This document shows, piece by piece, positions 14 through 41,853 of a stretch of DNA of 64,000 bases. The translations under genes were made by a program, and so were the position numbers. A model generated the notes under the pieces. The model did no database searches and was not told where the DNA came from. It saw only the letters and a program-made list of their open reading frames with translations. The stretch covers positions 1-64,000 of the forward strand of contig JADHNZ010000011.1 of NCBI GenBank assembly GCA_016779225.1, in the 5' to 3' direction. The stretch is from Planctomycetota bacterium. Its GTDB lineage: Bacteria > Planctomycetota > UBA1135 > GCA-002686595. How positions within the stretch are numbered: the stretch's first letter is position 1; each line of letters opens with the position of its first letter.

Positions 14-619
14 TCAGCCGCCCTTGCGGCGGATCAGATAGAGCGGATGGGCCGCGTCGGCCATCTGGTGACCCGTCATCGAGCACCAGGCCGGCAGGTC
101 CACCGGTGCCCCCGGATCGGTCGCGCGCAGGCGCAGCAGGCCGCCGGGATCCAACGCGCCGAGCCGCGTCCGCAGCTCGAGCACGAGGTCCCCGCAGCCC
201 ATGCCGCCGGCGTCCCACTCTGCGTCCCAAGCTTGCCCCCTCGCGCCCTCCGGCTCGATCCGTGCCTCGGGAGCCGCGACACCTGCACCGGCATCGCGCC
301 ACAGGCAGGGGGGACGCGCAAGGGCGCCCATCCCCTCGAGCTCACCGGCGTGGTGCCACGCTGCGAGGAAGCAGGCGTGGTGCTCCACATAGGCGAGAGC
401 GCGCTCCTGGAGCGGGCTCACCTCCTCCTCCATGTGTACCGCAATGCAGCCCAGGCACCGCGGCGAGCCCTTGAAGCCCAGGACGAGGCACAGGACAGCC
501 TCGTGCCCGCAGAGAGTCTGGCCGCACGCGGTACAGCGCGCGCCCGTCATGGCCGCGGCGTCCGCGAGGGCCCGGATGGTCTTCGGGTCGGTCTCCTCGT
601 GGAGCGGGTCGTCGCTCAT
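14..619 (-). CDS. TusA-family sulfurtransferase with N-terminal zinc ribbon
   Basis: The protein is about 201 aa. Residues about 25-65 hold a cysteine-rich ribbon (CTACGQTLCG, then CLGC). The last 70 residues are a TusA/SirA-like domain: the short motif GMGCG carries the expected sulfur-carrying cysteine, and the tail PAWCSMTGH...YLIRRK follows. TusA proteins relay persulfide sulfur between cysteine desulfurases, DsrE-type proteins and acceptors; this one should be cytosolic. The start was placed at ATG 619 because it overlaps the stop of the MetE-like gene as ATGA, a coupling that is also seen at several other junctions in the window; a GTG lies one codon upstream. It is the last gene of a four-gene minus-strand operon whose other members are DsrE, TusA-OsmC and MetE-like. 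The family call is firm; the sulfur acceptor is not known. Confidence 0.8.
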   Translation of the reverse strand: MSDDPLHEETDPKTIRALADAAAMTGARCTACGQTLCGHEAVLCLVLGFKGSPRCLGCIAVHMEEEVSPLQERALAYVEHHACFLAAWHHAGELEGMGALARPPCLWRDAGAGVAAPEARIEPEGARGQAWDAEWDAGGMGCGDLVLELRTRLGALDPGGLLRLRATDPGAPVDLPAWCSMTGHQMADAAHPLYLIRRKGG

Positions 620-1770
620 CACCCGAAGCGCTCCCGCAGCACGCGCGCCGCCTGGACCATGGAGTGCAGCTTCGCCACCGCCGGAGCCTCTTCATTCACG
701 CACCGGTTGGCGAAGCACCCGAACCCGCAGTCGGGGTTCAGGAACACCTGCTCCGGACGGTAGTAGCGCAGCGCCTCCTCGGCCCGCGCGACGATCGCGG
801 CAGGATCCTCCGCCTCGTCGGTGCGGGGGTTGATGCAGCCGAGCCCCAGCTCGCGATGACCGAGCGCCTCCCCGACCACGGCGAGCTCTCCCGCCCGCGG
901 CGTCGCGTACTCCAGAACGAACTGGTCGATCTCCATTGCCCTGAAGGCCGGAAGGAGCCGCTCGTAGTCGCCGGTCAGCAGGACCTCCTCCTGGCGACTC
1001 CAGTTGCCGCGGCACACGTGCAAGCCCGTGCGCACGCCCTCGACCCCGGCCACGACCCGGTTGAGCAGCTCTGCGGCGTACTCGAGCTCGGAACCCGCAT
1101 CACGGCGGGTTGCGAGGGTCGCTCACATGAAGGTTCGACGGTCATGCTCGTCCCCCATCACGATCTCGGTGAGAACCGGCTCGTCGAACTGCACGAACGA
1201 GGCCCCCGCGTCGCGCAGCTCGATCAGCTCCTCGCGCAGGATGCGGACGACATCGTCCCCCATCTCCGTCTTGTCGTCATACCCGGCGCGCGAGAACGCC
1301 CCGACCCACATGGAGCGTGTCAGCAGGTACGGACCTGGCAGGGAGACCTTGACCGGCAGGTCGGTCAGCTCCCGTACGAAGCGCAGCTCGTCCACGGCGA
1401 GGGGCTCCCTGCGGGCAAGCCGACCCGTACAGGTGGGGTTACGGATGGAGGATGCCGGCACATCCAGCGTGGTCAGCATCTCCTCGAAGGCCGCCTTGTC
1501 CGGCACCGTATCCAGCATCTCCGCCAGCGACATCAGCCGCGTGCCGTCGAGCTTGTCAGTCACGAACGAGTAGAAGTTGTCGCGGCGCTGCTCGCCATCC
1601 ACGACCACATCCACGCCAGCCTCGACCTGGTGGGACACGCAGCGGCGCACCTCCTCGTCGGCCACGGCCTCGAACTCGGCCCGCGTCATGCGGCCCTGCT
1701 GCTTGTCGCGGAGTGCGCGAAGGAGGTCCCTCGAGCGCGGCCAGCTGCCAACCTGGGTGACGGTGAACAT
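619..1770 (-). CDS. MetE-like cobalamin-independent methionine synthase with in-frame TGA (candidate selenoprotein)
   Basis: One reading frame of 384 codons is interrupted only by TGA at 1123-1125 (codon 216). Both sides are the same family. The N-terminal half has VGSWPRS and FDEPVLTE. The C-terminal half has the zinc-ligand motifs HVCRGN and NPDCGFGC and ends with a normal TGA. Read through, the protein is about 383 aa, the usual length for short 'core' MetE/COG0620 enzymes that transfer a methyl group to a thiol. The codon before TGA is ATG, and the sequence context (RTFM-X-A) is where I expect a cysteine in relatives. This is from memory and was not aligned. A hairpin fitting the bacterial SECIS rules begins 6 nt after the TGA. 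The gene lies 3 nt after the TusA-OsmC stop and overlaps tusA. Alternatives are a nonsense mutation (pseudogene) or two separate polypeptides; the lack of any indel and the preserved zinc ligands argue against decay. Confidence 0.75.
1087..1116 (-). promoter_or_regulatory. Candidate bacterial SECIS element
   Basis: On the coding (minus) strand, 6 nt after the in-frame TGA, CTCG pairs with CGAG. After a single C/C mismatch, AACCCGC pairs perfectly with GCGGGTT around the six-base loop CGTGAT. That gives 11 base pairs in total, with an apical loop beginning 18 nt after the UGA and a G at loop position 2. Bacterial SECIS elements are known to sit immediately 3' of the UGA, with the apical loop roughly 16-37 nt away and a G among the first two loop bases, so the geometry fits. 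GC-rich coding DNA forms chance hairpins, so this is supporting evidence and not proof. Confidence 0.5.
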
Positions 1771-1773
1771 GGG

Positions 1774-2529
1774 TCAGACGATGGCGAGCTTCGTGGTGAG
1801 CTCGGTGGCCTTGGCAAGGGTTGCGGCCAGGGGCGAGCGCCGCACGGTCTCTTCCCAGAGGGCTCGCACCTGATCCTCGGGGTCGAAGGTGGACGCGAAG
1901 AGCTTCAGCTCGATGGCGGCGAAGGACGGATCTCCGCCCTGCTCAAGGCCCAGGTGGGTCATCACATCGTGCAGGCGCCCCTTGGCCGTCGCCTCCAGGT
2001 CATCAACCTGGAGGCCTGCGCGCGAGCAGGCGAGCGAGAAGCCGGTCACGAGATCCGCCGCGAGCGCACCCAGAGCCGCCTCGACGGCGGAGGGGTGCGC
2101 ATCCTGCTCCTCGAAGCTCGCGGGCTGGCCGAGGGTCCACCTGAAGTTGCGGCAGTAGACCGTGGTCTCCAGCGCGTCCGAGGACCGGGCACGCAGGCGC
2201 CACTCATAGGCGCGCGCCCGCGTCTTGTCCTCTTCGAGCGCGGCGGCCTCCGTGCGTGCCTCCTCCCCCGCCCCGCGGCGGACGAAGAAGCGCGCCTGGC
2301 CAGGCATGGACCCCCCGAGCTCGCCGAGGAACGCGTGGCCCACCATCCGGCACCACGGCGGCAAGTCATCGCGCACCGTGGCCTCGAGGCTCCGCAGCTC
2401 GAGGACGCCGCCCTCGGGGACCTGCTGCATGTTCTGGCGGATGAGCAGGATGAGGCCCGAGCCGCAGTCCAGCGCTCCGCCGTCGAACACATGGTCCGCG
2501 ATCAGGCCCTCGAGGTCCTCACGGGTCAT
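1774..2529 (-). CDS. TusA-OsmC fusion protein
   Basis: This is a protein of about 251 aa starting at the ATG of MTREDLEGL; an upstream in-frame extension to 2652 overlaps the dsrE-like gene and looks non-native. Residues about 10-90 are a TusA-like domain with the key motif LDCGSG and a PPWCRMVGHAF stretch. Residues about 110-250 resemble OsmC/Ohr: a central helix around ALGALAADLV and the late motif RRSPLAATL. In OsmC peroxidases both of these places normally carry the reactive cysteines; here they are Asp and Ser/Pro, so peroxidase activity is doubtful. A sulfur-relay or scaffold role is more likely given the TusA half and the DsrE neighbour. It lies 22 nt after dsrE and 3 nt before the MetE-like gene, clearly the same transcript. 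Confidence 0.72.
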   Translation of the reverse strand: MTREDLEGLIADHVFDGGALDCGSGLILLIRQNMQQVPEGGVLELRSLEATVRDDLPPWCRMVGHAFLGELGGSMPGQARFFVRRGAGEEARTEAAALEEDKTRARAYEWRLRARSSDALETTVYCRNFRWTLGQPASFEEQDAHPSAVEAALGALAADLVTGFSLACSRAGLQVDDLEATAKGRLHDVMTHLGLEQGGDPSFAAIELKLFASTFDPEDQVRALWEETVRRSPLAATLAKATELTTKLAIV

Positions 2530-2551: not shown

Positions 2552-2917
2552 TCAGTAGCCGACGCTCGGCGAGCCGTTGGAGAGCCACTCGACCAGAGCC
2601 GCGCCGCCTGCGGGGGTGGCACCGGGAACCAGCATGTCCTCGGTGATCCCACGCTTCTTCATGCAGGGCGAGCACACGAGGATCTTGCCCCCGTTCGCCG
2701 TGAACTTCTCGACCAGCTCACGCAGAGGCGCGAAGGGCTCGCCAGCCTCAATGCGGTCGACCTCGGACTTCACCGCGGCCCAGACGCCGTCGACACTCAG
2801 GAACACCATCGTGTCCTTCTCGCTGCCCAGGGCGGCGTTGGCCACGACGAAGCCGACGGTGGCCTTATCCTCGTTGGTCTTGCACTCGGTGATGGTGACG
2901 CAGAAGGTGTTGCTCAT
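2552..2917 (-). CDS. DsrE-family sulfur-relay protein
   Basis: The 121-aa protein has the DsrE/F fold signature: an N-terminal beta strand after MSNTF, the NAALGSEKDTMVFLSVDGV segment, and a C-terminal CSPCMKKRGI loop. Its cysteines are at the place where DsrE-type proteins carry persulfide. It is first in the operon with TusA-OsmC, the MetE-like gene and TusA. DsrE and TusA proteins are known partners in cytoplasmic sulfur transfer, so the gene order itself supports a relay. No TANNNT box sits directly before the start; the nearest candidate is TAGCAT on the minus strand at 3053-3058, which would leave a leader of about 135 nt. Confidence 0.8.
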   Translation of the reverse strand: MSNTFCVTITECKTNEDKATVGFVVANAALGSEKDTMVFLSVDGVWAAVKSEVDRIEAGEPFAPLRELVEKFTANGGKILVCSPCMKKRGITEDMLVPGATPAGGAALVEWLSNGSPSVGY

Positions 2918-41526: not shown

Positions 41527-41853
41527 TTACAAGGTGATGACCTTGGCGGCCTTGCCCATGGCCGCGACGATGTCGTCCATGGAGCCCACGCGCCCGGCGG
41601 CGGGCTCGACTCCGTAGTGCTGCAGGCAGGTGCCGCAGGGGACGAGCTCGACGCCGCGCTCCTCCAGCATGGCGAGCTCCTGGAGCACGGGGGAGTCCGC
41701 GGCCGTGAGCTTGACGCCGGCGTTGAACATCAGCACCGCCTCGAGGTCCTGAAGGGCGACGGCCTTCTGCAGGAAGGTCTTCAGGATGCGGGCGCCGAGG
41801 TCGGGGTCGCCGCTGCCCATCTGGTCGCTGTCGAGCACGAGGACGGTCTGCAT
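41527..41853 (-). CDS. DsrE-like protein related to the C-terminal domain of YedF
   Basis: The 108-aa protein reads like the DsrE half of YedF: GARILKTFLQKAVALQDLEAVLMFNAGVKLT, SPVLQELAMLEERGVELVPCGTCLQHYG, and GSMDDIV. YedF proteins (TusA plus DsrE) are repeatedly associated with selenium metabolism, and the CGTCL motif is characteristic. Here the TusA half is absent; separate TusA proteins are encoded in the operon at 14-2917. It lies 51 nt downstream of a formate-dehydrogenase-like gene on the same strand, a natural place for a selenium-linked protein. The biochemical role is still inferred. Confidence 0.75.
   Translation of the reverse strand: MQTVLVLDSDQMGSGDPDLGARILKTFLQKAVALQDLEAVLMFNAGVKLTAADSPVLQELAMLEERGVELVPCGTCLQHYGVEPAAGRVGSMDDIVAAMGKAAKVITL

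Follow-up and report, generated by a model that had tools for sequence, protein, structure and literature searches.

A MetE-like protein with a probable UGA-encoded selenocysteine, accompanied by TusA-, DsrE- and OsmC-like proteins and linked to selenium genes in several bacterial lineages

The window, by which we mean the whole stretch of 64,000 nucleotides analysed here, comes from a Planctomycetota metagenome-assembled genome (MAG) of 3.2 Mb that is 77% complete. At one of its ends lies an operon on the minus strand, in which a gene for a MetE-like protein is flanked by genes for TusA-, DsrE- and OsmC-like proteins. The features of this locus are the following:

14..622, minus strand: protein, Cys-rich in its N-terminal part, with a TusA-like domain at the C-terminus (PF01206, 29.8 bits), overlapping the stop of the MetE-like gene
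619..1770, minus strand: MetE-like (COG0620, Meth_synt_2) gene of a predicted selenoprotein, 383 aa including one Sec, ending in the TGA at 621-619 (PF01717, 108.6 bits)
727..1020, minus strand: zinc-ligand codons H251 (1020-1018), C253 (1014-1012), E287 (912-910) and C348 (729-727), from the alignment to MetE and MesD structures
1087..1116, minus strand: predicted bacterial SECIS element, 11-bp stem with one mismatch and six-base loop CGUGAU, from folding and synonymous constraint
1110-1093, minus strand: conserved core of the SECIS element, ACCCGC-CGUGAU-GCGGGU
1123..1125, minus strand: in-frame UGA, codon 216, very probably read as selenocysteine (motif RTFM-U-ATLATRRDAG), from its recurrence and the Cys in relatives
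1774..2529, minus strand: TusA-like:OsmC-like fusion (PF02566; TusA 20.8 bits and OsmC_like_Se 20.8 bits, both below cut-off)
2552..2917, minus strand: DsrE-family protein with a CxxC motif (CSPC; PF02635, 54.2 bits), a conserved neighbour

The MetE-like reading frame has 384 codons (1770-619), and its translation contains a sole internal stop, the TGA of codon 216 (1125-1123). The original prediction, made from the bare sequence, had described this single interruption of an otherwise continuous frame, the DsrE, TusA-OsmC and TusA proteins of the operon and a YedF-like protein elsewhere in the window, all of which we recovered. The last of these is a small protein resembling the C-terminal, DsrE-like part of YedF (41527-41853, minus strand; 34% identical to the YedF of a Bacteroidota locus, L067), and its ORF closely follows a gene for a molybdopterin oxidoreductase, which has no UGA within its homologous part. 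The MetE-like protein belongs to the Meth_synt_2 domain family by a wide margin, the gathering cut-off of PF01717 being 21 bits.

The composition of the operon is well conserved. The genes for DsrE, TusA:OsmC and the MetE-like protein occur together in most loci, whether the latter has UGA or Cys at codon 216, usually with a further TusA-like gene, and most operons have a counterpart of the protein at 14-622. In a distant clade of Cys forms the TusA domain is even fused directly to the MetE-like domain. These partners and this fusion make the transfer of sulfane sulfur or selenium to or from the enzyme plausible. DsrE-like and OsmC-like proteins are themselves represented among the selenoproteins of the Sargasso Sea, where UGA likewise takes the place of Cys ahead of a bacterial SECIS hairpin (PMC1088965). 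In contrast to that set, selenocysteine is here predicted in the MetE-like enzyme, and a search for UGA in the DsrE and OsmC genes across the loci found none; the TusA-like gene of one locus (L053) has a single stop near its end. Certain loci from Verrucomicrobiota and some Planctomycetes (L087, L089, L068, L072, L073 and L077) also have an acyl-CoA dehydrogenase and a PhnD-type binding protein near the MetE-like gene, and often a further OsmC-like protein.

The UGA of codon 216 is found in many genomes. Among the 101 relatives that we searched, a second genome (G095) encodes a protein 76% identical to that of the window, whose frame is likewise interrupted once, by a TGA at this codon; some 20 homologues at 43-56% identity have Cys at this position. 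With the alignment of these two UGA-containing proteins as query, we scanned 84,980 species genomes and obtained about 40 close relatives, at 59-86% identity, among the matches listed. In at least 37 other contigs the frame is interrupted only once, by a TGA that corresponds to codon 216 and stands within RTFM-U-[AG][TS]LATR; three Verrucomicrobiales among the listed close relatives have Cys instead. By the titles of their records, the UGA carriers belong to Planctomycetota, Verrucomicrobiota, Bacteroidota, Pseudomonadota, Acidobacteriota, Chloroflexota, Armatimonadota and several candidate phyla. They are intermixed in the tree, which suggests horizontal transfer or some misbinning.

A Cys at this site in relatives had been anticipated, and the expectation holds throughout the alignment of 85 sequences: 38 have UGA in column 216, and all of the 47 others have Cys. 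The tree of these sequences requires three changes between Sec and Cys, each forced by strongly supported branches: one at the main clade, to which the window belongs, one back to Cys in the Verrucomicrobiales, and one at a separate small clade. In the latter (L153:5518-6633 and L155:4424-5539) the UGA occupies the same column in a different motif, HTFM-U-GVLAAKASP, and is followed by a different hairpin; a tRNA-Sec is present in one of the two genomes (G189) and was not seen in the other (G314). Two gains of Sec and one loss to Cys are the simplest account of this history. The repeated exchange of Cys for Sec at one column argues that the residue is chemically active.

Six nucleotides past the UGA, the mRNA can form the hairpin CUCG(C)AACCCGC-CGUGAU-GCGGGUU(C)CGAG (1116-1087). 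It has 11 base pairs and one C.C mismatch, a G at the second position of the loop, and a loop that begins 18 nt after the UGA, which is the geometry initially described. A hairpin just 3' of the UGA with a small apical loop containing a G is the mark of bacterial SECIS elements (PMC1088965), and both features are present here. The folding energy of a 42-nt piece is -19.7 kcal/mol (z = -2.95), a stability that none of 200 shuffled sequences equalled. Among 35 UGA-containing genes, the choice of synonymous codons is frozen at codons +5 to +10 (z = 11.1, 13.4, 11.3, 5.8, 14.7 and 11.3), which coincide exactly with the two strands and the loop of the core; elsewhere between codons -30 and +39, z peaks at codon +1 with 4.8. 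Most relatives keep the inner 6 bp and the loop, the outer 5 bp being partly conserved, and the core pairs in 95% of cells, against 30-49% when it is slid. Covariation within the core is weak (37 of 500 shuffles reached the observed value) because the stem hardly varies, and the only compensatory change in it is an A-U pair replacing C-G in L067. The full 11-bp stem performs better. Two Bacteroidota sequences (L066 and L071) fold into a different hairpin.

The host has the means to decode this codon. The original prediction had proposed to look for selA, selB, selD and tRNA-Sec, and the four are present in the same MAG: the tRNA-Sec scores 72.8 bits (ARAGORN: SeC, tca), selA 459 bits, selB 364.6 bits when counted with its in-frame neighbour, and selD 340 bits (G000:C76:4503-5450). 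The selD gene itself has one in-frame TGA with a hairpin after it, and the SelD of this organism is, by this evidence, a UGA-encoded selenoprotein. Among the genomes of the at least 37 other UGA-carrying contigs, 33 of 37 have a tRNA-Sec of at least 52 bits; no clear tRNA-Sec was seen in the remaining four or in G314 of the small second clade, perhaps owing to the incompleteness of these genomes. Within Planctomycetota, tRNA-Sec is present in 48 of the 52 genomes with a MetE-like gene of this family and in 183 of the 340 without it, an association (Fisher p = 1.7e-8) that is uncorrected for relatedness. It is uninformative in the nearest order, since 96 of its 101 genomes have tRNA-Sec. Many genomes that use Sec are devoid of the operon.

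Several other explanations of the in-frame UGA must be weighed against these observations. As the TGA breaks the frame, it could be a real stop in a pseudogene or a split gene whose downstream similarity is decaying, and one relative is in fact frameshifted: the Burkholderiales sequence L093:6001-7157 (RTFM-UGA) has frameshifts before and immediately after the UGA, caused by an assembly error or by decay of the gene, and was omitted from our analysis. Yet the same codon is interrupted in 38 sequences with no other stops, and dN/dS downstream of the UGA is 0.04-0.16, as low as in the upstream part, indicating purifying selection (the downstream values for L153 and L155 are unreliable, due to an unhandled indel). 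The SECIS footprint and four invariant zinc ligands also lie 3' of the UGA, which leaves decay very improbable. That the window comes from one MAG might raise the suspicion of a sequencing or assembly error giving TGA for TGC, TGT or TGG, but this has a negligible probability given that the TGA recurs at one codon in at least 37 other contigs from independent projects. A UGA that is read through could also have been reassigned, or a suppressor tRNA could insert some other residue at it. The MetE-like gene and its operon neighbours all end in TGA, so that UGA is a normal stop here and the code is not reassigned; together with the Sec machinery and the Cys of relatives, this makes such readings hardly credible. 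We rejected pseudogenization, sequencing error and reassignment on the recurrence of the UGA, the SECIS footprint, dN/dS and the TGA stops. In E. coli the insertion of Sec competes with termination, and this competition predicts that some truncated product is made, which leads to the idea of a programmed choice where a 215-aa form is also functional and read-through is set by the supply of selenium. This form would be devoid of H251, C253, E287 and C348 and is unlikely to work as an enzyme, so we give the idea little weight. Our comparisons indicate with high confidence that codon 216 encodes selenocysteine in a genuine selenoprotein. The assignment is near certain, and incorporation itself is what we infer from a wholly computational analysis of carriers that are nearly all MAGs.

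The enzyme has the anatomy of the C-terminal domain of MetE (PF01717/COG0620), with which it shares the fold, the zinc ligands HxC...E...C, and the S/E/D residues that bind homocysteine. The zinc ligands, identified from PMC7857596 and previously noted to be intact, are invariant in the family alignment, as are E60 and D196 among the homocysteine-binding residues, S9 being nearly so. An AlphaFold2 model (pLDDT 90) matches the structures of MetE and MesD, with a Foldseek probability of 1.00 for MetE. Unlike MetE, the protein has no N-terminal folate domain, and it does not qualify as the two-domain enzyme of about 750 aa: it has 383 aa, Meth_synt_1 is below cut-off and TIGR01371 scores 94 against 930 bits. 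It further differs from MetE by an insertion after DEPVLTE that contains Cys/Sec216, by an extra C114, by a CFANRC motif in most members of the Sec clade, and by its partners TusA, DsrE and OsmC. Residue 216 lies in a loop between the DEPVLTE and HVC motifs that is modelled with low confidence (pLDDT 62-67 in the blocks covering 201-220). C114 and the CFANRC motif, which follows PDCGFG, are found in most Sec-clade proteins and are absent from the distant Cys relatives; their cysteines may be resolving cysteines. MesD (PDB 3RPD; PMC7857596) is likewise a stand-alone MetE-like protein with the same functional residues and is the top sequence match among solved structures (171 bits). It has about 19% identity to our protein in the structural alignment, and the aligned structure is devoid of the RTFM-U/C segment. 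No DUF1852/MesX protein was found among the operon proteins, i.e., the neighbouring genes, that were scanned.

The MetE-like gene, in its Sec or Cys form, adjoins selA, selB or selD in four lineages. In the Bacteroidota MAG with L067, a single strand encodes, in this order, selB, a protein of the cysteine desulfurase family, yedF, selD, TusA, DsrE, TusA:OsmC and the UGA form of the MetE-like gene. In Pseudomonadota (L085 and L086) an ArsR:rhodanese regulator is followed by the UGA form and selA, and L086 also has selB and selD. The Cys forms of two Verrucomicrobiales (L089 and L073) are flanked by sel genes, and on plasmids of Paracoccus (L132 and L133) the order is TusA, DsrE, two hypothetical genes, a TusA:MetE-like fusion with Cys, selA and trxB. 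By a rough estimate, a sel gene is found in a random 13-kb stretch with a probability of about 0.01, so that four lineages among some 45 loci are well above chance. Operons for Sec biosynthesis with selA, selB, selD, yedF and cysteine desulfurase are familiar, and in L067, L085 and L086 the MetE-like gene lies within such runs; to our knowledge, no MetE-like methyltransferase has been described as part of a selenium operon. This linkage suggests that the module serves the handling of selenium.

We propose that SelB and tRNA-Sec would decode the UGA of codon 216 on the hairpin directly downstream. The resulting Sec216 would replace an otherwise invariant Cys in a flexible loop after the homocysteine-binding DEP motif, where it would most likely act as a nucleophile or chalcogen carrier beside a zinc-bound thiolate (or selenolate) substrate, and the TusA-, DsrE- and OsmC-like partners, like the fused TusA domain of some relatives, would probably supply the enzyme with a sulfane-sulfur or selenium group or accept one from it. 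The reading that we favour, with nearly even credence, is that of a chalcogen-handling enzyme, with Sec216 as nucleophile near the zinc-bound substrate, that serves selenium metabolism. Its main rival accepts the selenoprotein but takes it for an ordinary folate-independent, Mes-like methionine synthase in a sulfur and methionine operon, in which Sec only betters the chemistry and the linkage to sel genes reflects the need for decoding. This is plausible, if not probable: the protein retains S9, E60, D196 and the zinc ligands, its best solved relatives are MetE and MesD, and DsrE, TusA and OsmC belong to the classical proteins of sulfur relay or thiol chemistry. Yet Cys forms, which have no need to decode Sec, also adjoin sel genes (in Verrucomicrobiales and on the Paracoccus plasmids), and the scores against the NCBIfam methionine synthase models lie far under their cut-offs. 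Moreover, most carriers have a full-length MetH, so that the MetE-like enzyme is probably not simply their methionine synthase, and a role as the sole one is unlikely.

Selenium metabolism might be served in a more specific way, by a dedicated module with a repurposed MetE fold, in which Sec216 or Cys, together with the zinc-bound substrate, would accept selenium or methyl-selenium and reduced selenium would go via TusA and DsrE to SelD, a possibility that we regard as less likely than not. An example would be the demethylation of methylated selenium compounds to yield methionine and selenide. A 2026 review (PMC13188914) states that the proteins which bring selenium to SelD in vivo are unresolved, and such a module, if true, would be one answer to how selenophosphate synthetase gets its selenium. 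Through its linkage to sel genes and yedF, the module offers a defined set of four genes on which this delivery can be tested.

The original prediction knew of no described selenoprotein in the MetE family, and this agrees with the 119 prokaryotic selenoprotein families and subfamilies tabulated in the same review (PMC13188914), which include no MetE-like or COG0620 family, and with NCBIfam 20.0, where no model accepts a MetE-like selenoprotein. Our searches of open papers for selenoproteins among MetE or homocysteine methyltransferases, and for operons of TusA, DsrE, OsmC and methionine synthase, found nothing relevant. The selenoprotein family is new, but both its decoding machinery and its fold are known. 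The original prediction was even too modest, since the family occurs in many phyla and its module is genetically linked to genes of Sec biosynthesis. The family would be a widely distributed addition to the selenoproteins, in a superfamily for which we found none recorded and with a fold other than the thioredoxin-like ones that prevail among those listed. The gene would be annotated as truncated or split in about 40 genomes.

Finally, a different MetE-like gene with an in-frame UGA was found in another genome (G293; L156:5482-6543, minus strand). Here the UGA falls on the zinc-ligand Cys itself (FHL-U-RGN against HVC-RGN) and is followed by the hairpin GGACAGCC-GGU-GGCUGUCC. The gene is part of a selenoneine-type cluster: SenB (371.5 bits) and EgtD (329 bits) flank it, and SenA (484 bits) is found upstream. 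It is the only UGA example that we found of this second type, of which a Cys form, 53% identical, adjoins EgtD in another locus (L167). For a protein of a selenoneine cluster to bind zinc through selenocysteine would be remarkable.
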